From Ectothiorhodospiraceae bacterium (GTDB taxonomy: Bacteria; Pseudomonadota; Gammaproteobacteria; Nitrococcales; Aquisalimonadaceae), in contig PXAT01000048.1 of the NCBI GenBank assembly GCA_003565775.1, forward strand, positions 1 to 62,208: a stretch of 62,208 nt of DNA, given 5' to 3'. How positions within the stretch are numbered: position 1 is the stretch's first letter; each line of letters begins with the position of its first letter. The notes under the pieces are model-generated. The model was not told the DNA's origin. It worked only from the letters and a program-made list of their open reading frames with translations, and ran no database searches. The translations under genes were made by a program, and so were the position numbers. Of this stretch, positions 2,381 to 35,305 are shown in pieces.

Positions 2381-2968
2381 GTGAGTGACTCGAGTAACGA
2401 TTCCGCAGCTATCCGCAATTTCGTCATCGCCGGGTCTCTGCTGACGATTGGTACCCTGATCCTGCTATCGATTGCCCTGTTCATGGGCACGTTCGACACC
2501 TCCACTCGGGATGCGCGGGCGCAATTCGAGCGCGAGCAGCTGGAAGCGCGTCTGGAGCGGGTCGGGGCGGTGCGGGTCGACGAGGGCGCGGCGGAGGTCT
2601 CCCTGGAAGCCGAAGATGATGCCGATGCGGCGGCGGCAGCCATGGAAGACAGTGACGAGGTCGACGATGCGGACGTCGCGGCGGATGAGGATGACGACGA
2701 CGTGCAGCGGGCCGGTGCCGATGTGTATGCCTCGGTGTGCATGGCCTGTCATGCCGCCGGCGTGATGAATGCATTGAAGCTTGATGATGAGGACGGCTGG
2801 GCCGACCTCAAGGACGAGCGAGGTGGCCTGGACGAGCTTGTGAGCAATGCCATCAACGGGATCGGCGGCATGCCGGCGCGCGGCGGTGACAGCAGCTTGA
2901 GCGACGACGAAGTGCGTGCCGCTGTGGTCTACATGCTGGAAGAGGCCGGTCTCGAGGTCGACGACTGA
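2381..2968 (+). CDS. Membrane-anchored cytochrome c (c5-like)
   Basis: The 195-residue protein has one N-terminal membrane anchor (about residues 14-36), then a charged and helical linker very rich in Asp, Glu and Ala (about residues 66-108). A C-terminal cytochrome c domain follows, with haem motif C120-MA-C123-H124 and a likely distal Met at 164 (GIGGMPARGG), as in cytochrome c5-type proteins. It should face the periplasm and shuttle electrons to a terminal oxidase or reductase, though no partner is encoded nearby. The GTG start has a strong GGAGAAGG ribosome binding site. The acidic linker is consistent with a halophilic host. Confidence 0.85.
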   Translation: MSDSSNDSAAIRNFVIAGSLLTIGTLILLSIALFMGTFDTSTRDARAQFEREQLEARLERVGAVRVDEGAAEVSLEAEDDADAAAAAMEDSDEVDDADVAADEDDDDVQRAGADVYASVCMACHAAGVMNALKLDDEDGWADLKDERGGLDELVSNAINGIGGMPARGGDSSLSDDEVRAAVVYMLEEAGLEVDD

Positions 2969-2993
2969 ACCTGGAACCGCAATCGTCTTTCGA

Positions 2994-3019
2994 GAAACCG
3001 GCCTCGCGCCGGTTTTTTG
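2994..3019 (+). terminator. Rho-independent terminator after cytochrome c gene
   Basis: An AACCGGC/GCCGGTT stem with a short CTCGC-type loop is followed by six T, 26 bases after the stop codon. Confidence 0.85.
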
Positions 3020-3171
3020 TTGTCCCGACGCCATTCGCGCCAGGATGTTGCGCCGCAACGGTGCAGGCCTGCTTCGAATCGCCCTCGTCTGGTGCGTTGT
3101 TTTCTTGCAATGACGTGGAAACAACAACGCCGTTTTCCATAAAGCATTGAAGTAAAAATAGAAGATTTCTT

Positions 3172-3187
3172 TGGCATGGCATCTGCA
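3172..3187 (+). promoter_or_regulatory. Sigma-54 promoter of the TorF porin gene
   Basis: TGGCATGGCATCTGCA matches the -24/-12 consensus with the GG and GC dinucleotides exactly 12 bases apart. It stands about 80 bases before the porin start in an AT-rich stretch. An upstream activator site is not clear; only GGTGC half-sites are seen near 3060 and 3092. Confidence 0.7.
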
Positions 3188-3267
3188 AAACGATGGCTAG
3201 ACAGTCGTTGTGTAACAACAACGGCCGCGTCTTTCCAACGCTTTCAGTGATGACAGAGGAAATCTTG

Positions 3268-3969
3268 ATGAAAAAGACCATGACTGCTCTTGCCGCCGCC
3301 GGTCTGCTGGCCGCCGCCGCACCGTCCACCGTGGCCGCCAATGAAATCGGTGGAGGTTTGAGCTGGAGCGGAAACCTGACCCTCACATCAGATTACGTTT
3401 TCCGGGGTTTTTCCGAATCGCGGGGTGGTCCGGCCGTACAGGGCGAATTCGCGATCGAGCACGAAACCGGCTTCTATGTGGGTAGCTGGAATTCCAGCTT
3501 CGCCTCCGGCGATGACGGTAACGGTCTGGAAACGAGTGTCTACGGCGGTTTCGAGACGGAAATCGTGCCAGGCCTGTCGGTCGATCTGGGTATCTACCGT
3601 TACATTTTCCCGCGCACGGACGATAACGAAGACTTCAACGAGTTCTACATCGGCTTCGGCACGGAGATGATGGATTTCGAGGCGGCGTTCTACTACAGCT
3701 ATGCGAATGACTACCTCAAATCCGACGAATCGGCACACATTTTCGAGCTGTTCTCCGCTTACAACGTTCCCGATTCCGACGTCTATCTGTTCGGTAACGT
3801 CGGTTACCTGAATTCCGACGCCTTCGAAGACGACGGCGACGACGAATACTGGTACTGGGAACTCGGCGTCGGCGTTGAACTTGCCGGTCTGGACTGGAGC
3901 GTCATGTATACCGATCAGGACCTCGAGAGCCGCCGTCGCTTTGCCTTCACGGTCAGTGCCGACTTCTGA
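3268..3969 (+). CDS. TorF-family putative outer-membrane porin
   Basis: The 233-residue protein has a cleavable signal peptide ending near AAAAPSTVAA and then alternating beta strands with a terminal Phe (TVSADF), typical of an outer-membrane barrel. LTLTSDYVFRGFSES is the N-terminal signature of the TorF/TIGR02001 family. Family members are often found close to P-II and ammonium transporter genes, and here glnK-amtB lies 2.3 kb downstream. I chose the ATG with AGAGGA upstream, not earlier in-frame starts, because the signal peptide begins there. A sigma-54 promoter precedes it, suggesting nitrogen control. The substrate is unknown. Confidence 0.85.
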   Translation: MKKTMTALAAAGLLAAAAPSTVAANEIGGGLSWSGNLTLTSDYVFRGFSESRGGPAVQGEFAIEHETGFYVGSWNSSFASGDDGNGLETSVYGGFETEIVPGLSVDLGIYRYIFPRTDDNEDFNEFYIGFGTEMMDFEAAFYYSYANDYLKSDESAHIFELFSAYNVPDSDVYLFGNVGYLNSDAFEDDGDDEYWYWELGVGVELAGLDWSVMYTDQDLESRRRFAFTVSADF

Positions 3970-5630: not shown

Positions 5631-5912
5631 TCAGTCTATTTTCTGATCGTTCCGATCAGTCTGGCCCGGGTTCGGCGATTCTTCCAGCGCCTGCACGCGG
5701 GCTTCCAGCGCTTCCAGTTGATCGCGTGTGCGCGACAGGACCTTGGCCTGCGCATCGAACTCCTCCCGCGTCACCAGATCCAGACGATTGAATGTGCTTT
5801 GCAGGGTGCCGCGGACGTTGCGCTCGACCTCCTGCTGCAATTCCTTCACGCCACTCGGCAGGCTCTCGCTGAAACGGCGGGCCAGGTCATCCAGGGTTTT
5901 CGGATCCAGCAT
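5631..5912 (-). CDS. ubiK: UbiK ubiquinone biosynthesis accessory factor (BMFP family)
   Basis: This 93-residue acidic protein starts MLDPKTLDDLARRFSESLP. It has an amphipathic N-terminal helix and a C-terminal coiled coil (about 55-80), the UbiK/YqiC architecture. UbiK helps assemble the Ubi complex with UbiJ. The ATG with GGAG ahead is preferred over an earlier in-frame ATG. It is divergent from glnK across a 326-base regulatory region. Confidence 0.88.
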   Translation of the reverse strand: MLDPKTLDDLARRFSESLPSGVKELQQEVERNVRGTLQSTFNRLDLVTREEFDAQAKVLSRTRDQLEALEARVQALEESPNPGQTDRNDQKID

Positions 5913-5955
5913 GGTTGCTCCTCGGTTGATGGTGGCGCACCAGCACCGCGCGTCA

Positions 5956-5972
5956 TGCGCCATTCTGGTGCG
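5956..5972 (+). promoter_or_regulatory. NtrC-like enhancer site upstream of glnK
   Basis: TGCGCCATTCTGGTGCG is a near-consensus NtrC dyad (TGCACC-N4/5-GGTGCA). Its centre lies about 110 bases before the transcription start predicted from the sigma-54 promoter, the usual distance for an NtrC enhancer. Confidence 0.65.
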
Positions 5973-6047
5973 TTAAAGCGCCGGCTTGTGTTTCGAAATC
6001 TCTTCCTGAGTTCGATAAAACCATGTTTTTTATTGAAAAACAACAAG

Positions 6048-6063
6048 TGGCACAGGACGTGCT
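6048..6063 (+). promoter_or_regulatory. Sigma-54 promoter of glnK-amtB
   Basis: TGGCACAGGACGTGCT has a perfect -24 TGGCAC and a -12 TGCT with GG and GC 12 bases apart. It lies about 190 bases before glnK and downstream of the NtrC-like dyad. Confidence 0.8.
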
Positions 6064-6130
6064 TTTGCTCTTGGCGAGTCGGTTCCCAAGCGTTGCTCGA
6101 AATACACATGGTGCTGTGGTGCACGAGTGA

Positions 6131-6577
<447 letters not shown>

Positions 6578-29045: not shown

Positions 29046-30097
29046 GCATGACTCTCCTCGGCGCGTAACTGGCCGATTTCTTTTTCTTGGACGCTGGGCA
29101 GCCGACGACTGCCCAGGCGGAACGAACTTCGCAACAGGGTATCGCTGCCTGCCGAGAGGTTACATGTGGCGATGATCAGGCGCAGGCGCCGCCGCGAAAT
29201 CTTGACCTGGTCGCCGGCGGTATAGCCCGGATTGTCGGCAATGTTGCGCAGGGTGCAGAGCGCCATGCCGATGGCCCAGCTGCAGAACCGGCGAATGCCC
29301 ACCTGAGACGTCGGGATGCGCAGCGTATAGTCCCGCGCCAGTTGCAGATGTCGATATGCGACCGCCACCAGAAAGCGGATGCCCTCGCGGTAGCCGGGAT
29401 GATCCTGCCAGTGATGTGTCCGTCTCAGGTCGGCGCCATGATCCTCGAAGACATCGCGTGGCAGCCAGCATATGCCGCGCTTCCGGTCATCCCAGACATC
29501 CTTGAGGATATTGGTCATCTGCAGACCCTGGCCGAAGGCCAGAGACAGCCGCCGCAGGTCGTCGCGCTGCCGGCCGATCCGTGGATCGGCATCGGCAAAC
29601 AGGCGGGTCAGCATTTCGCCGACGCAACCGGCCACCACGTAACAGTAGTCGCGCAGGCATCCACTGTCCGGCAAGCCGTGGGGATTCTTGAGGCGCTCGA
29701 AATCGGCCATGCCGTTACACATCGTGGTCACGCAGTCGCGCAACGCCGCCTGCTGGTCCGGCGGCAACTCGCCGAATGCCCGCAGCACACCGGGTGTCTC
29801 GATGATGAGTTCCCGTTCCAGCGGATCGCGGACCAGGCCGGTGTTCAGCAGCGCGTCGGCAAAGCTGCCGGCCGCCGAGGCATCGTCCAGCGCCATCAGC
29901 AGACGCTGGTAATGGGCATCCTTGTCATCGACGGCCATCGTCGTGCTGTCTTCCACGGTGTCGGCGATCCGGCACAACAGGTAGGCGTTGCTGATCGCCG
30001 GGCGCAGTTCCAGCGGCAGTTGCGGGATGGTCAGCGCGAAGGTGCGGGAGACGCCGGGCAGCAGGCGATCCTGAAGTGCGAGCGATGCCGGCGTCAT
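29042..30097 (-). CDS. Squalene/phytoene synthase family protein (likely squalene synthase)
   Basis: The 351-residue protein has both aspartate-rich motifs of trans-head-to-head prenyl synthases, D46TVED50 and the second motif in FGQGLQMTNILKDVWDD. YCYVVAGCVGEMLTRLF resembles squalene synthases more than phytoene synthases. It probably condenses two farnesyl diphosphates into squalene, a precursor of hopanoids or a membrane lipid in its own right. It is translationally coupled on both sides (ATGA overlaps with the reductase and with mlaA). Which product it makes cannot be settled here. Confidence 0.85.
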   Translation of the reverse strand: MTPASLALQDRLLPGVSRTFALTIPQLPLELRPAISNAYLLCRIADTVEDSTTMAVDDKDAHYQRLLMALDDASAAGSFADALLNTGLVRDPLERELIIETPGVLRAFGELPPDQQAALRDCVTTMCNGMADFERLKNPHGLPDSGCLRDYCYVVAGCVGEMLTRLFADADPRIGRQRDDLRRLSLAFGQGLQMTNILKDVWDDRKRGICWLPRDVFEDHGADLRRTHHWQDHPGYREGIRFLVAVAYRHLQLARDYTLRIPTSQVGIRRFCSWAIGMALCTLRNIADNPGYTAGDQVKISRRRLRLIIATCNLSAGSDTLLRSSFRLGSRRLPSVQEKEIGQLRAEESHA

Positions 30098-31125
30098 GTG
30101 CGTGTTTGCGTGTCGGCCGCGGGTTCGAATGCGTCCGAGAACAGGCGCTCCGGATCCAGGCCGTGGCGTTCGAAGTCACGACGGGCGACAGCGATCATCC
30201 CCGGCGGGCCGGCCATGTAGACATCAAAGCCGGACAGATCCGGGTAATCGGCCAGCAGCATGTTGTGGACCAGGCCGACACGTCCCTCCCAGAGGTCATC
30301 CTTCTCCGGCTCCGACAGGCAGGGGGTGTAATGGAAGTTGGGGTGTTCCAGTCGCCAGTGTGTCGGCAGCTGATGCAGGTACAGGTCGCGCCGCGTACGG
30401 GCGCCCCAGTAAAGATGCAGTCGGCGGTCCGTGCCGGTCGCGAAGGCATGTTCGAGAATGCCCTTGATCGGTGCGAAGCCGGTGCCGCCGGCGACAAACA
30501 GCGCCGGGCGTTCGCTGTCCTCACGCAGATAGAACTGGCCGAAGGGTCCTTCCAGCCGCAGCAATGCCTTTTCCTGCATGTCGCCGAAAACCTGGCCGCT
30601 GAAGGCGCCGTTCCCCACGTCCCGGACATGCAGTTCCAGCAAGGCATCGTCGTGCGGCGGGTTGGCCAGCGAATAGCTGCGCCGGCGACCATCACGCAAC
30701 AGGATGTCCACGTACTGGCCGGCGAGAAACTGCAATCGGTCCTGGTCCGGCAGTTTCAGGGCCAGTCGCATGACGTCGTGATTGAGCGGTTCCATTTCCA
30801 CCACGCGACAGGGCAGCTTGCGCGGCGCGATGTCCACGGTATCGCGTACTTCCCGCACCTCGATCACCAGATCGCCGGTCGGCTCTGCCAGGCAGAAAAG
30901 CGCCTGTCCGACCGCGTCTTCCTTTTCGTCCAGTGCCTCGGGCAGCTCATCGCCCGGGTAACGGATGCTGCCCTCGACCACCTTGCCCATGCAGGTGGTG
31001 CACGTGCCGCCGCGACAGCTGTAGGGGATGGCCAGGCCATGACGCAGCGAGGCTGCGAGCACGGACTCGCCGGGTTCGGCCGTGAACTCGTGGCCGCTCG
31101 GTTCAATACGGATGCGATAGCTCAT
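30094..31125 (-). CDS. 2Fe-2S ferredoxin-type flavin reductase (AscD/CDP-deoxyglucoseen reductase-like)
   Basis: The 343-residue protein has an N-terminal plant-type 2Fe-2S domain (CRGGTCTTC plus a distal Cys in LFCLAE), then an FAD domain (RRRSYSLANPP). A NAD(P) domain follows (FVAGGTGFAPIKGILEHA and VYMAGPPGMI). Annotation pipelines often call such proteins CDP-6-deoxy-delta-3,4-glucoseen reductase, but the operon with squalene synthase gives no sugar-pathway context. It more likely supplies electrons to an unidentified partner. The ATG start is the one before MSYRIRIEPSGHEF, not in-frame codons in the adjacent repeat. Confidence 0.87.
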   Translation of the reverse strand: MSYRIRIEPSGHEFTAEPGESVLAASLRHGLAIPYSCRGGTCTTCMGKVVEGSIRYPGDELPEALDEKEDAVGQALFCLAEPTGDLVIEVREVRDTVDIAPRKLPCRVVEMEPLNHDVMRLALKLPDQDRLQFLAGQYVDILLRDGRRRSYSLANPPHDDALLELHVRDVGNGAFSGQVFGDMQEKALLRLEGPFGQFYLREDSERPALFVAGGTGFAPIKGILEHAFATGTDRRLHLYWGARTRRDLYLHQLPTHWRLEHPNFHYTPCLSEPEKDDLWEGRVGLVHNMLLADYPDLSGFDVYMAGPPGMIAVARRDFERHGLDPERLFSDAFEPAADTQTRT

Positions 31126-31156
31126 ATCGGCATTGTCGCTGATTTCCGCATCGGGT

Positions 31157-31397
31157 TTAAGGAAACACTGATTTATCCCCCGTCCGCGCCCGAGACCGGT
31201 TTCGGTCAGCTGGCAACGGCGCTCGGTTCTAGTGCCAATCTCACCGTGTGGTGCCCTGCCGGGGTAAGGCATTCCCTCTCCGGCATCCGGCATCCGGCCG
31301 ATCGGTATCGAGGCCCGAAACGCGCGCGGCCGGGCTGGGTGTCGAAGTCCAATCTTGAGCTGCGTTTTCCGCGACTGCGCCGCTGCGCAGTGCGCTT
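31157..31397 (+). repeat. Dispersed TIR element, copy 5 (degraded)
   Basis: It starts with the intact terminus TTAAGGAAACACTGATTTAT and the CGCCCGAGACCGGTT segment. The core then diverges (GCATTCCCTCTCCGGCATCC relates it to copy 2) and the far terminus cannot be recognised. It fills the 272-base gap between the reductase and the BNR lipoprotein gene, and no gene is seen in it. Confidence 0.65.
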
Positions 31398-32567
31398 TCA
31401 GTCGTTCAGCAATGCCATGCGCCAGAGGCGCTGACCATCCTCCCCCCGTTCGGTCCAGAAGACCTGCTGGCCATGGCTGGTCGCGGTCAGCAGTGGATGG
31501 CTTGCTGCCGCACCGGATCCTGCCAGCACGGATTCCCGCCACTGGTCGTCCACATGGCGGGCCAGATGGATTTCGCCTCCATCGTCCCAGGCGGCCAGGA
31601 GCTTATTGTCGTGGGTTCCGGTCAACGCCGGGTTGCCGGCGCCGCGATCGCCCAGCCGCCGCGGACCGGACCATGCGGCGCCGTCTTCCAGCGGCGTGTG
31701 CAGAGCGTAAATTCCTTCGTGGTCCTCGTGGCCGGTCCACACCACGGCATGCAGTTGCGGCATTCCCACCGACCGGACCGCCAGATCTCCTCCCACATGC
31801 GGGCAGGCATCCACCCGCCAGTCGAAACCGCCGACTGCGCCCCGCTTCTGCCAGGATCGGCCGCCATCGGAAGAAGCGCTCATCGCCATGTCTCGCGGGT
31901 CCAGCGCGCGATAAAGAAGTCGGACCTCATCGCCAGCCGTGATCAGGGTATTCCAGCAGCATTCACAGGTGGCTGCGTCCAGAGTATGTGTCGGCCCCCA
32001 GTTGTCAGACCCGTCCTGGCGGGCGTAGCGCAGACCCTGCCTGCCATCGCGCATGTCGAGCCAGGCCAGGTGGAAGCTGCCCTCCGAATCCGCATGCAGG
32101 GCGAAAAAGCCATGTGCGGGACTGTCTTCGATGGTGGCGGGGGCAGGCGCCGCCGCCCAGCTGCGACCGCCGTCGTCCGAGGCGGCCAGCACCATGGGTC
32201 CGCTGTCGGCAAAGCCGTCGCCCCGGGTCTGCCAGATGACGCGGATACGGTCATCGTGGACTGCAATGCGGATGTCGTTGCTGCGGTGTACCCGGTCGGG
32301 CGGTGCCTGCCCGGTATCGATGGCCACGGGACCACGCCAACTCCGGCCGCCGTCGCTGCTCTGACTGTGCATGGCGCGAACGCGGTCGTCCGACCGTTGC
32401 TCGACCCAGACCGCATGGACCACGTCATCGCGCGCGGTGACCCCCAGGCTGACGACGTCATGCGCGGTCGGTGCGCTGGTCTCGTGTTCCGCCTGAGAGA
32501 CCGGCTCGCCGCCGCAGGCCGACAGCAGCAGCGCCGGCAGTAAGGCAAACACTCTTACCAGTCCCAT
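31398..32567 (-). CDS. BNR-repeat (sialidase-fold) lipoprotein
   Basis: The 389-residue protein is a predicted lipoprotein (LLLSAC, Cys18). It has at least three Asp-box repeats (SSDGGRSW, SDDGGRSW, SSDGGRSW) diagnostic of a six-bladed sialidase-like propeller. It lacks the arginine triad arrangement and FRIP motif I would expect of a true sialidase, so an enzymatic role is doubtful. A C201-E-C203-C204-W motif is unusual in this fold and could bind metal. It overlaps the TonB receptor gene by 13 bases. Confidence 0.8.
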   Translation of the reverse strand: MGLVRVFALLPALLLSACGGEPVSQAEHETSAPTAHDVVSLGVTARDDVVHAVWVEQRSDDRVRAMHSQSSDGGRSWRGPVAIDTGQAPPDRVHRSNDIRIAVHDDRIRVIWQTRGDGFADSGPMVLAASDDGGRSWAAAPAPATIEDSPAHGFFALHADSEGSFHLAWLDMRDGRQGLRYARQDGSDNWGPTHTLDAATCECCWNTLITAGDEVRLLYRALDPRDMAMSASSDGGRSWQKRGAVGGFDWRVDACPHVGGDLAVRSVGMPQLHAVVWTGHEDHEGIYALHTPLEDGAAWSGPRRLGDRGAGNPALTGTHDNKLLAAWDDGGEIHLARHVDDQWRESVLAGSGAAASHPLLTATSHGQQVFWTERGEDGQRLWRMALLND

Positions 32568-34600
32568 TGCACACCTCCATAGACGGATCGCGGGCTACCG
32601 GGGTTGTAGACGCGACTGGACGCGTCCGCACGGGCGACGATGCCGGTGGTGGCGGCATGCCGTCGGTCGGTCAGGTTGCGACCGTCGAGGAACAGTCGCC
32701 AGCCCTTGCCGGAGTCGAAGCCCGCGCGCAGCCCGAACAGGACGTAGGCCGAAGCCGTCTCGGTATTGGCGAAATCGACGGGTGTGCGACTGCTGACGGC
32801 CAGCACTGGCCCGGCATGAAAACCATTGCCCGCTCGGTAGATGGCCTCCAGTTGACCGACATGCCGGGGCAGACCCGGGATGCGGTTGCCGCCCCAGAGC
32901 GGATCGCGGCGGAAGCGGAAGTCGTTCAGCGTGTAACTCAGTCCCAGTTCCAGCGCGTCATCCGGACGATTCAGTGCCCCCAGATCCTGACGCCAGCGAC
33001 CGCCAAGTTCGATGCCCTGGTGGATGCTGCGGTCGGCGTTGCCGGTCAGGGTGTCGCCGGGGTTGGCCGGATCCTCGACCAGCAGGATCTCGTTGCGCAG
33101 CCAGGCACGGTAGACCACCACTTCCCACTCCAGGTCGGGTCTGTCGCCGCGCAGCCCGAGCTCGGCGGTATCGGCCCGTTGCTGCCTTACCAGTTCACCG
33201 TCCTCGCTGATCAGTTCGCCGTTAATCGGCGGTTCCAGACTGCGACTCAGGTTGCTGAACGCCTGCACCCCCGGCATTAGCTCGTGAATCAGGCCGATCC
33301 GCGGGCTCGCGCCGCGATAGATGCGTCGGCCTTCGGGCGCGTTGGCCGTCCGGACGTCCTCCTCGCGATCGGCCCAGCTGAGTTGCAGGCTGGTTACCAG
33401 GCGTGTTGCCGGGCCGATGGCAAGGCTGTTGTCGGCATACACTTCGACCGTCGCGGCGCTGTTGTTGCGGCGGGTCACGGCACCGGTAAAGCGGTTCTCC
33501 TGCGTGGCGCGTTCGCGTCCGGTCACCGCGAGACCGCCCCAGGTGAAGCGGGTGTCCATGCCCAGTAGCGAGCCATGCACCACGTGACGCAGGCTGAGAC
33601 CGATGTCCTGCTGACTGCTGTCGATCTCCGCGAACGGCAACGGATGGTCCATGCGCAGATCCTGGACGAAGGTGCCGACTTGCAACTGATCCTCGGCGCG
33701 CAGGCGGATGCCGTGCTGGATCGCCAGTCGGGCAAGCGTCAGATCGCGGGCTGCGTCGACGTCGCGGAACGCCGGGTCGGCCTGGCGCGGATCGTCGCGG
33801 AACTCCTGCCGGGTCAGGGAGCCCGGCAGGTCGAGACGACTGTCCTGCAGGTCGAGATGGATACGGGTCTGGCGCCGCTCGTCATGCTGGATGCCGGTGT
33901 TGCCATAGAAGCGCAGGCTCTGCTGGGCGGACTGGCTGCGAAAACCGTCCTCGCGGCTCAGGCTGAGGGCGGCAACGCCATCCAGATCAGAGGCGCCATT
34001 CCAGGCGCCGCGGGCCTGAGCCCGGGCGTAGCCGAAGGAGCCGGCTTCGGCACGCAGCGTTCGTGGCGCCACGCTGTAGCCGGTGGGTGACGTCAGGTTG
34101 ATCGCCCCGCCCAGGGTAGAGGCACCCCAACCGAGCGCATTGGCGCCCCGATAGACGCTGATGTGTTCGGCACTCAGCGGGTCGATGAGCTGGGTACGCG
34201 TGTTGCCGTCGGCTTCCGTCATGGGCAAGCCGTCACGCAACAGGCGGATGCCCCGGGTATTGAAGGTTCGCGAGATGCCCGAGCCGCGAATCGACAGGCG
34301 CAGTTCATCGGCGCCGAATCGGGAGCGTGCGAATACGCCGGGGGCGTCGTCCAGCACATCGGCCAGATTGGCGGCTCGGCCCCGGCGAATACGGGCTTCG
34401 TCGATCAGGGTGGTACCGCCCGGGATTCTGCGCAATTCGTCGGCCGCCTGCTCGGCGCTGGGCCGGGTGCTGACAGGCGCACGGTCGACCACATCGATCG
34501 GCGCCAGCGTCATGCGGGACGGGGTCTCGGCGGCCGCCAGGGCCGGGGTCGTCAGCCACGGCAGCACGGTCGCGGCCAACAAGGTTGGTTTCCAGCGCAT
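32555..34600 (-). CDS. TonB-dependent outer-membrane receptor
   Basis: The 681-residue protein has a signal peptide ending near TTPALAAAE, then a plug domain with GGTTLIDEARIRRGRAANLADVLDDAPGVF and RLSIRGSG. A 22-stranded barrel follows, ending in an aromatic residue (YGGVQWDW). Such receptors bring scarce metal chelates, haem, cobalamin or other ligands through the outer membrane using TonB. The neighbours, a His/Cys-rich DUF2946 protein and a lipoprotein with a CxCC motif, point to a metal, with copper or zinc the best guess. No TonB-ExbBD genes are in the window. Confidence 0.9.
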   Translation of the reverse strand: MRWKPTLLAATVLPWLTTPALAAAETPSRMTLAPIDVVDRAPVSTRPSAEQAADELRRIPGGTTLIDEARIRRGRAANLADVLDDAPGVFARSRFGADELRLSIRGSGISRTFNTRGIRLLRDGLPMTEADGNTRTQLIDPLSAEHISVYRGANALGWGASTLGGAINLTSPTGYSVAPRTLRAEAGSFGYARAQARGAWNGASDLDGVAALSLSREDGFRSQSAQQSLRFYGNTGIQHDERRQTRIHLDLQDSRLDLPGSLTRQEFRDDPRQADPAFRDVDAARDLTLARLAIQHGIRLRAEDQLQVGTFVQDLRMDHPLPFAEIDSSQQDIGLSLRHVVHGSLLGMDTRFTWGGLAVTGRERATQENRFTGAVTRRNNSAATVEVYADNSLAIGPATRLVTSLQLSWADREEDVRTANAPEGRRIYRGASPRIGLIHELMPGVQAFSNLSRSLEPPINGELISEDGELVRQQRADTAELGLRGDRPDLEWEVVVYRAWLRNEILLVEDPANPGDTLTGNADRSIHQGIELGGRWRQDLGALNRPDDALELGLSYTLNDFRFRRDPLWGGNRIPGLPRHVGQLEAIYRAGNGFHAGPVLAVSSRTPVDFANTETASAYVLFGLRAGFDSGKGWRLFLDGRNLTDRRHAATTGIVARADASSRVYNPGSPRSVYGGVQWDW

Positions 34601-34737
34601 GGTTTCCTTCCTGTCTGAAATACACGCACGCCGCCGGCTGCATCGGGCAGCGGCGGGAATGGTCGGGTGCGGAGATCACTGGCGCCAGAGCCGCGCCGCT
34701 CGGGGAGCGGTGCAGTGGCCATGGTCGTGATCAGAGC

Positions 34738-35154
34738 TCAGGCCAGGGGCGGGCCGTGTTTCAGAGGGCGCAGGAAGGGGGTTTCGGTGACGTCTACTGA
34801 CAGATCGAATCCAATGGAAGGCCGGAGGTGTGCCGCTGCCAGGGCCGGCGGGACGCCAGGGGGAGGCGCGGCGTTCGCCTCGCTCAGCTTGCCGCAGGTG
34901 CAATCGCAGCAGATCGGCATTGGTGTGGCGTCATGCGAGGCATGATCGTGATGCGCATGGGAGGACGCATGGTCATGGGCTGCATGATCACCGCCATGCT
35001 CAGCCTGCTCATGGCCCGTAGCCGCGTCACACAGGCCGGGCAGGGCCATCATCAGCCGGTGCTCGGCATGCGCCAGCGGCTGCAGGACAAAGGCCAGCGC
35101 TGCCAGCAACAGACAGGTCAGAGACAAACGGCGGAGGCGGGCAAGACGCTTCAT
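34738..35154 (-). CDS. His/Cys-rich exported protein (DUF2946-like)
   Basis: The 138-residue protein has an N-terminal hydrophobic signal or anchor (about 10-30) and a striking His-rich segment (about 48-74, many H, D and A). A CCDCTC cluster at residues 82-87 follows. This is the DUF2946 layout often seen beside TonB-dependent metal receptors. It is probably a periplasmic metal-binding or sensing protein. It heads the operon; the receptor follows after a 137-base gap. A TATAAT-like hexamer lies about nine bases before the ATG on the minus strand. Confidence 0.75.
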   Translation of the reverse strand: MKRLARLRRLSLTCLLLAALAFVLQPLAHAEHRLMMALPGLCDAATGHEQAEHGGDHAAHDHASSHAHHDHASHDATPMPICCDCTCGKLSEANAAPPPGVPPALAAAHLRPSIGFDLSVDVTETPFLRPLKHGPPLA

Positions 35155-35305
35155 GGCAACCGATTATAGCGCTGCATCACAGCACGGTTTCAGGTTTGAT
35201 TTTTTACCTTTTATAACAGATACTTGAGAACATCTAGCCTCTTCCCATCGCTCAGAGGGTTGGACTCCTACCGCGGGGCGCCGGGCGCATGGTGCTTCGC
35301 ATCCT

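Follow-up and report, generated by a model that had tools for sequence, protein, structure and literature searches.

We analyzed a stretch of 62,208 nucleotides (hereafter the window) from an Ectothiorhodospiraceae bacterium (contig PXAT01000048.1), whose genome is grouped in the genus of Methylonatrum kenyense, and focused on three consecutive genes on its minus strand, which probably form a copper-repressed operon for copper uptake. The first gene (positions 34738 to 35154) is CutF/CruR-like, as judged from its open reading frame, Pfam and the filters published for CutF-like proteins (PMC9973294); it encodes a histidine-rich protein of 138 amino acids that carries the motif CCDCTC, ends in HGPP and contains PMPICCDCTCGK. 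The second (32555 to 34600) encodes a TonB-dependent receptor of 681 amino acids, recognized through Pfam and a search of the PDB, in which its best sequence matches were YncD and PqqU. The third (31398 to 32567) encodes a predicted lipoprotein of 389 amino acids with a BNR_2 beta-propeller, a description based on its reading frame, Pfam, an alignment and a structure model. The initial annotation had reported three genes here, and translation of the window recovered all of them at the same coordinates, with products of 389, 681 and 138 amino acids.

The leader and receptor genes are separated by 137 bases (34601 to 34737). The stop of the receptor gene and the start of the propeller gene overlap by exactly 13 bases (32555 to 32567; ATGGGACTGGTAA), as had been noted, and the overlap is also 13 bases long in five other loci of the same order (L002, L003, L004, L136 and L137), that is, in all six loci measured. 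A seventh locus of the order, L005, was left out of this count because its receptor gene is broken. In this metagenome-assembled genome of Aquisalimonas, the receptor gene is split between three frames and continues into that of the propeller (L005:4608-6906), which reflects either decay or an assembly error.

The propeller protein begins with a lipobox-like LSAC (residues 15 to 18, positions 32514 to 32525) that has glycine at +2. The CxCC cluster claimed in the initial annotation is present as CECC at residues 201 to 204 (31956 to 31967), where the protein reads ATCECCWN and the cysteines are Cys201, Cys203 and Cys204. A further element, Cys255-Pro256-His257 (31797 to 31805), holds the fourth cysteine of an invariant set that the annotation had not included. 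The protein scores 33.6 bits against the Pfam family BNR_2 (PF13088), above the cut-off of 31.4.

To what extent CxCC is conserved in orthologues had been proposed as a check, and the result does not refute the claim: the motif is kept in 25 of the 27 relatives found by sequence search (one repeat removed), the two without it (L026 and L029) being weak matches over part of the protein. Because only 2 of 117 stop-to-stop frames of at least 200 codons in the window contain CxCC, the propeller frame included, this conservation goes beyond chance. We then aligned 23 relatives, leaving out L028 (which repeats L018), L026 and L029 (no CxCC), L004 and L005 (partial) and L027 (long extra N-terminus). 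The residues C201, C203, C204, R220, D226, W250, C255, P256 and G259 are invariant in all 23 rows, of which only those outside CxCC are independent evidence, as the rows were picked for having that motif. They define a second invariant element, W250...C255-P256-x-x-G259 (hereafter CPxxG). Two histidines, His152 and His257, are each kept in 19 of the 23 rows. A profile search of 398 genomes of the phylum matched 17 places in at least 16 genomes, the window's own included, and all 17 carry both CxCC and CPxxG, a count that is not fully independent because the profile itself holds the two motifs. Propellers with both elements are present in Pseudomonadota, Bacteroidota and Planctomycetota, and several of them are annotated as 'sialidase family protein'. 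Three overlapping searches of plasmids matched 11, 63 and 64 records; both elements are kept in all nine plasmid copies that we examined.

We compared gene order over 53 loci of the family, comprising the window, seven loci from a genome collection, three sets of 18, 16 and two genome regions, and nine plasmid stretches. A neighbour was counted if it lay on the same strand within 900 nt, and TlpA-like partners were recognized by Pfam thioredoxin or AhpC-TSA matches. We named the branches of the family by the residue that follows CxCC: W (the branch of the window), R and Q/K/T. A receptor gene lies upstream of the propeller gene in 11 of the 15 W loci, a count that includes L005 with its broken receptor frame and whose misses include L008, cut at a contig end. 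In the R branch, the receptor is upstream in 22 of 27 loci and the propeller gene is followed by one for a TlpA-like thioredoxin in 24 of 27; such a gene lies 3' of the propeller in 1 of the 26 W and Q/K/T loci taken together. In one case the propeller and the TlpA-like protein are fused into a single frame of 567 amino acids (L035:9030-10730, the same locus as L014). Energy genes for TonB or ExbB adjoin the operon in L033 and L038. Four loci (L008, L040, L042 and L046) stop close to the propeller, so missing neighbours mean little there.

Some loci have additional neighbours. A ferredoxin-type reductase gene lies 3' of the operon in the window (30094-31542), in L002 (7422-8495) and in L003 (3816-4889); Pfam finds Fer2, FAD-binding and NAD-binding domains in the L002 protein, the L003 gene belongs to the same cluster, and the window gene was assigned by reading only. 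In L032, a gene resembling those for formylglycine-generating enzymes (FGE-sulfatase; 5654-6469) lies directly 5' of the receptor gene. An open reading frame of L030 (2563-4320) had no Pfam or PDB match.

In order to assess whether the partnership is a property of BNR propellers in general, we searched 252 genomes of the class with BNR_2 and examined 30 loci out of 42 match rows. Six of these loci, the window included, carry CxCC and CPxxG, and 24 have neither when read in all six frames. Five of the six loci with the two motifs have a TonB receptor gene no more than about 1.5 kb away on one side or the other, compared with none of the 24 without them (hypergeometric probability 4.2e-5, or 2.1e-4 with the window excluded). 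A TlpA-like thioredoxin shows the same distribution, being nearby in four of the six and in none of the 24. The possibility that receptor partnership is general BNR behaviour was thus ruled out. Whether the genes co-occur outside this strain had been the other proposed check, and again the claim is not refuted: the receptor-propeller pair recurs far beyond this strain. This recurrence across loci supports the fixed partnership that had been deduced from the overlap of the two genes.

The first gene resembles two kinds of copper-related leader. CutF-like proteins have been defined as proteins of fewer than 150 amino acids with PP in the last 15 residues, a signal peptide and a same-strand gene less than 1000 nt downstream (PMC9973294). 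The leader of the window fits this definition: it has 138 residues, its prolines are P135 and P136, the receptor gene follows after 137 nt on the same strand, and its N-terminus, judged by eye, looks like a signal peptide with a basic start, a hydrophobic core and AHA. CruR of Bordetella has CXXC and RAPP with 45 residues between them (PMC9426467). The CXXC of the window is CCDC (residues 82 to 85), and 47 residues separate it from HGPP, within the CruR spacing of about 45, give or take one or two. RAPP occurs in 9 of the 17 leader proteins that we compared, among them those of L003 and L137, where the spacing is 45 and 44 residues. In other leaders, CXXC and the PP end are 44 to 48 residues apart, counted from at least one CXXC; the distance is 50 in L118, and the leaders of L002 and L004 have no PP at the expected C-terminal place.

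The DUF2946 label given in the initial annotation held for relatives of the leader and failed for the window protein itself, which scores 11.3 bits against a Pfam cut-off of 23.7. The L002 leader is also below the cut-off (19.9 bits), and the seven other leaders scanned all pass it, including two from the same order, L136 (26.3 bits) and L137 (25.3 bits). The window and L136 leaders match each other with an E of 2e-12. Judged on sequence, the window leader is probably CutF-like and a relative of CruR rather than a strict member of the DUF2946/CruR family. We searched 40 loci for leaders with a filter (C-x(1-3)-C plus PP) that is not exhaustive and that picked one false small open reading frame in L119. 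By this count, a leader heads 15 of the 33 operons that pair receptor and propeller, and both branches are represented: the window, L002, L003, L004, L136, L137 and L118 in the W branch, and L104, L106, L108, L110, L111, L115, L116 and L117 in the R branch. Two loci are not among the 15. In L109 (1673-4757), a CruR-like leader precedes a different TonB receptor gene near the propeller-TlpA pair, in opposite orientation, and in L119 the gene order is propeller-leader-receptor.

From the second half of the leader gene through most of the gap to the receptor gene (34643 to 35000), the coding strand is rich in C and poor in G (41% and 26% over 358 nt); only 0.1% of window stretches are as extreme, with the limits of the stretch set after inspection. 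This composition resembles the Rho-type C>G bubble of cruR, where copper acts on a translation arrest and Rho stops transcription ahead of the receptor gene (PMC9426467). A TATAAT box (35163 to 35168) lies 8 bases 5' of the leader ATG, and in L002 and L004 the alignment shows a CTATRAT box 9 bases 5' of it. No box of this type was seen in the aligned stretches of L136 and L137, and a strict sigma-70 scan upstream of the leader found no full site. Because the box is only 8 to 9 bases away, the leader message would start on the ATG or close beside it. No ribosome-binding site can be made out 5' of the window leader, which may be translated from a leaderless or nearly leaderless message.

The receptor matches the Pfam plug (PF07715, 1.8e-16) and barrel (PF00593, 1.2e-33) domains. 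After the start, His319 and His527 are the only histidine, methionine or cysteine residues that are invariant in eight W-branch receptors. The copper receptor CrtA has been described as having two conserved histidines and no conserved cysteine or methionine (PMC12914433). The two patterns resemble each other, which proves nothing, and we set the receptor beside CrtA by description without claiming that it is CrtA. No CrtA-named chain was among the PDB matches of the receptors of the window and of L106, in a copy of the PDB that may lack 9RVQ and 9RVX. The structure model of the receptor was too poor for use (mean predicted local distance difference test, pLDDT, of 53.7).

Copper genes recur around the family. 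In a scan of ten neighbouring genes from six loci, we found a PCuAC gene directly after the thioredoxin gene in L115, a gene for DUF1775, which we take to be linked to copper, together with a CopC-CopD fusion after the operon in L110, and a PepSY_TM gene before the leader in L118; the remaining genes of the scan matched no copper family. On plasmids, an annotated copper gene lies within about 7 to 8 kb of the propeller in eight of the nine copies, a proportion that has no background rate. The neighbours are amoCAB and CopC in Methylomagnum, a multicopper oxidase and a resistance-nodulation-division (RND) pump in Runella, a copper oxidase, plastocyanin and CusA in Sulfitobacter, bilirubin oxidase (a multicopper oxidase) on pSLIN02 of Spirosoma, a multicopper oxidase on one side and mercury genes on the other in Tritonibacter, a copper oxidase and plastocyanin in Phaeobacter, CopCD and a multicopper oxidase in Roseobacter, and two multicopper oxidases in Marinovum. 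The copy on pSLIN01 of Spirosoma has no copper gene within its stretch. Two plasmids of one strain of Spirosoma linguale (L068 and L073) have nearly the same row of genes, for the propeller, a DUF326 protein, a YVTN propeller and a methyltransferase. The genome of the window has three matches to PF00115 (COX1, subunit I of haem-copper oxidases).

A published expression study lists what may be a related pair. In RNA sequencing of Thioalkalivibrio thiocyanoxidans on thiocyanate, a BNR-repeat gene, which is known from its table entry, was induced (log fold change 3.00) along with the gene of the next locus tag, an 'iron outer membrane complex' receptor (3.64) (PMC5744179). The two belong to an induced cluster with copCD and the copper enzyme TcDH, and they receive no comment in section 6 of the study (PMC5744179).

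AlphaFold2, run with eight alignment rows, predicted a confident propeller (mean pLDDT 84.6, predicted template modelling score, pTM, 0.86). The closest solved fold is the CylK propeller (7fh7: Z 32.2, root-mean-square deviation 3.3, 336 residues aligned), and the PLL4 lectin 8q82_A also matches (Z 29.4, root-mean-square deviation 2.6, 303 residues aligned). The propeller thus shares its fold with BNR_2 sialidase-like propellers, CylK and PLL lectins, at a sequence identity to the nearest solved folds of 12%, and the 24 other BNR_2 loci examined lack CxCC and CPxxG. No propeller with a copper-thiolate site was named among the best 50 structure matches of each list, which is a weak absence. In the model, His152 opens the strand 152-159, Cys204 lies three residues before the strand 207-211 and Cys255 three before the strand 258-265. 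The three residues would accordingly sit at the first strands of three successive blades, a placement read from the strand list that would gather them at one mouth of the central channel.

The layout of the operon has a close precedent. In cruR-crtA(bfrG)-crpH of Bordetella pertussis, as in the window, a leader reading frame with CXXC and a proline-rich end comes first, a TonB receptor second and a partner gene third (PMC9426467, PMC12914433, PMC13038864). The gap between leader and receptor is 162 bp in Bordetella (PMC9426467), compared with 137 in the window. The two operons differ in their third gene, which in Bordetella encodes a membrane protein of the PepSY_TM family, a speculated copper reductase (PMC13038864), and here a four-cysteine beta-propeller; R-branch operons differ further by adding the TlpA-like gene. 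A PepSY_TM gene follows the receptor in more than 75% of CrtA loci (PMC12914433), and in this the window is unlike them. We considered whether Bordetella BP2921 could itself be a propeller and rejected this, as it is described as a PepSY_TM protein (PMC9426467). The word 'propeller' does not occur in the main texts of PMC9426467, PMC12914433 and PMC13038864, nor do BNR or sialidase in those of them where these words were searched. The leader also resembles the CutF-like protein of Rhodobacter cutFOG, a small exported Cys/His protein with PP near its end that precedes copper genes (PMC9973294). The target of CutF is a multicopper oxidase, and its effect is opposite to that of CruR; the parts of the CutF-like survey that we consulted report TonB-like neighbours and no propellers (PMC9973294).

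Four conserved cysteines, the partnership of the genes, the leader gene and the copper neighbourhood were observed directly. The most likely interpretation is that the propeller is part of a copper-uptake system rather than a sugar enzyme, because its four cysteines are strictly kept and its gene accompanies those of an outer-membrane importer and of a copper-sensing leader. From its sequence, the propeller is a predicted metal binder, with its metal binding, side of the membrane and cargo all inferred, and the metal is most probably copper. The initial annotation had proposed a metal-handling trio in the outer envelope and a role unusual for the BNR fold. The unusual role and the link to metal are supported by our results; the first protein, in contrast, most likely controls the operon instead of being a third envelope metal handler.

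By homology, the nascent chain of the leader would sense copper through its CXXC motif, and its proline-rich end would decide whether transcription runs into the receptor gene. When copper is scarce, the leader would let transcription proceed into the genes for receptor and propeller. The receptor would then move a copper chelate over the outer membrane, and the propeller would take the copper as Cu(I) on a site formed by CxCC and Cys255-Pro256-His257, at the channel mouth on neighbouring blades. TlpA-like thioredoxins act in the periplasm, and since such a protein is encoded in the R-branch operon, the propeller is probably on the periplasmic side. TlpA itself reportedly reduces ScoI and CoxB before they are metallated; the R-branch partner resembles it, and its client here would be the propeller, whose cysteines it would keep reduced or for which it would complete a thiol-driven reduction of Cu(II). 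Periplasmic carriers, for example PCuAC, could then receive the copper and deliver it to haem-copper oxidases.

Several observations weigh against a copper-uptake operon. The best PDB matches of the window receptor are YncD and the transporter of pyrroloquinoline quinone (PqqU), with no copper receptor, and its match to the TonB-copper model TIGR01778 has an E of 0.11. The leader ends in HGPP and not in an exact RAPP, so that the arrest motif is altered, its DUF2946 score is below the cut-off, and our filter detected no leader in 18 of the 33 receptor-propeller operons. DUF2946 also occurs in Caulobacter, in the czr efflux operon that zinc induces and Zur activates (PMC4176598), and His-only CutF-like clusters accompany nickel/cobalt genes (PMC9973294); the window leader combines a Cys motif with a His-rich stretch. 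A TlpA-like gene is downstream in just 1 of the 15 W loci and is absent after the window propeller. Two further CxCC places, G136:C1:2083002 (L047) and G028 (L046), are without an upstream receptor. They come from the 12 control rows that had no supplied locus, the remaining ten of which are not in our counts, and adding them changes the receptor control to five of eight compared with none of 24 (2.8e-4). The plasmid control, for which L026 (no CxCC) was the query, matched nothing. In the Q/K/T branch, a receptor is upstream in 0 of 11 loci, and the plasmid members of this branch lie in loci that resemble copper-resistance loci. The property shared by the whole family may for this reason be copper binding rather than uptake.

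We weighed five other explanations against copper uptake through a periplasmic propeller. The propeller could sit outside the cell as a lid on the receptor and capture the copper chelate there, like BtuG on BtuB. Surface lipoproteins of the BtuG/XusB type in Bacteroides reportedly have a propeller fold and are paired with a TonB transporter, so that a propeller lipoprotein with a TonB transporter is common to both systems; in the present family, translation is coupled to that of the receptor and 5 of the 9 W-branch rows have a lipobox-like pattern. The BtuG/XusB proteins, however, bind B12 or siderophores at the surface, whereas here the conserved thiol site and the thioredoxin point to the periplasm. 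The R-branch partner is TlpA-like and in one case fused to the propeller, and by a simple pattern 10 of the 12 R-branch rows have no lipobox; the thioredoxin and the missing lipobox together favour a periplasmic over a surface location, and we consider a surface lid unlikely. In L003 (LTAC-D; 2583-3773), the lipid cysteine is followed by Asp, where the window and L002 have Gly or Gln. Asp at this place is an inner-membrane retention signal in E. coli, which for L003 also speaks against a surface position, and lipoprotein sorting may differ within the genus.

It is similarly unlikely that the four cysteines form two disulfides, which would stiffen the propeller or turn it into a partner of TlpA in thiol redox chemistry, with no metal site and with a link to copper that belongs only to the operon. 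The thioredoxin associated with 24 of 27 R loci is what this explanation would predict. The W and Q/K/T branches nevertheless retain the cysteines, although only 1 of their 26 loci has a TlpA-like gene downstream and copper genes are often near, and His152 and His257 are conserved as well.

A third explanation, to which we assign a low probability, is copper defence, in which the propeller would bind excess Cu(I) in the periplasm, with the receptor as an accessory. On plasmids, the genes around Q/K members do include those for multicopper oxidases, Cus-type pumps and P-type ATPases, and CutF raises the expression of its downstream gene with copper (PMC9973294). The W and R operons, in contrast, hold an energized importer, with TonB or ExbB genes in L033 and L038 and PCuAC in L115, and the CruR precedent, which includes a receptor, is copper-repressed (PMC9426467). 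The cargo could instead be zinc, iron or a cofactor such as pyrroloquinoline quinone, and our estimate for this is just as low. YncD and PqqU are the best PDB matches of both the window receptor and the R-branch partner receptor of L106, and DUF2946 is found in the Caulobacter zinc operon (PMC4176598). The window receptor, however, scores 137 bits with the PqqU model against a cut-off of 1200, copper families recur around the operons, and no gene for pyrroloquinoline quinone was seen among the neighbours scanned.

Sialidases have a Tyr/Glu catalytic pair and an arginine triad. The kept arginines of the 23 rows are R220 (23/23), R225 (22/23) and R173 (20/23), with R220 and R225 five residues apart. 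No Glu is kept in 60% of the rows and no Tyr is invariant, so the catalytic pair is missing. Despite the BNR_2 match and the sialidase-like fold, a sialidase or other glycosidase, as annotated, is therefore rejected because of its residues and is next to impossible given neighbours that are a receptor and metal genes.

A copper-controlled operon of leader, TonB receptor and partner is already known from Bordetella. Judging from the sequences, what would be new here is the propeller partner with its four invariant cysteines, and its thioredoxin; apart from the table entry in PMC5744179, we did not find either in the portions of the open-licence literature that were searched. We propose more tentatively that the CxCC...CPxxG propellers constitute a new class of copper proteins in the envelope, with a Cu(I)-thiolate site and a TlpA-like reductant, which would strip and reduce the copper that enters through a dedicated TonB receptor, doing by means of thiols the step that PepSY_TM is speculated to perform in CrtA operons.

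Little is known about how bacteria import copper across the outer membrane, and few copper-importing outer-membrane receptors have been identified (PMC12914433). If our interpretation is correct, this propeller family would supply the missing hand-over step from the receptor to periplasmic carriers. CxCC together with CPxxG would then be a sequence mark by which many 'sialidase' labels could be read anew, as belonging to a family that is widespread and misnamed.

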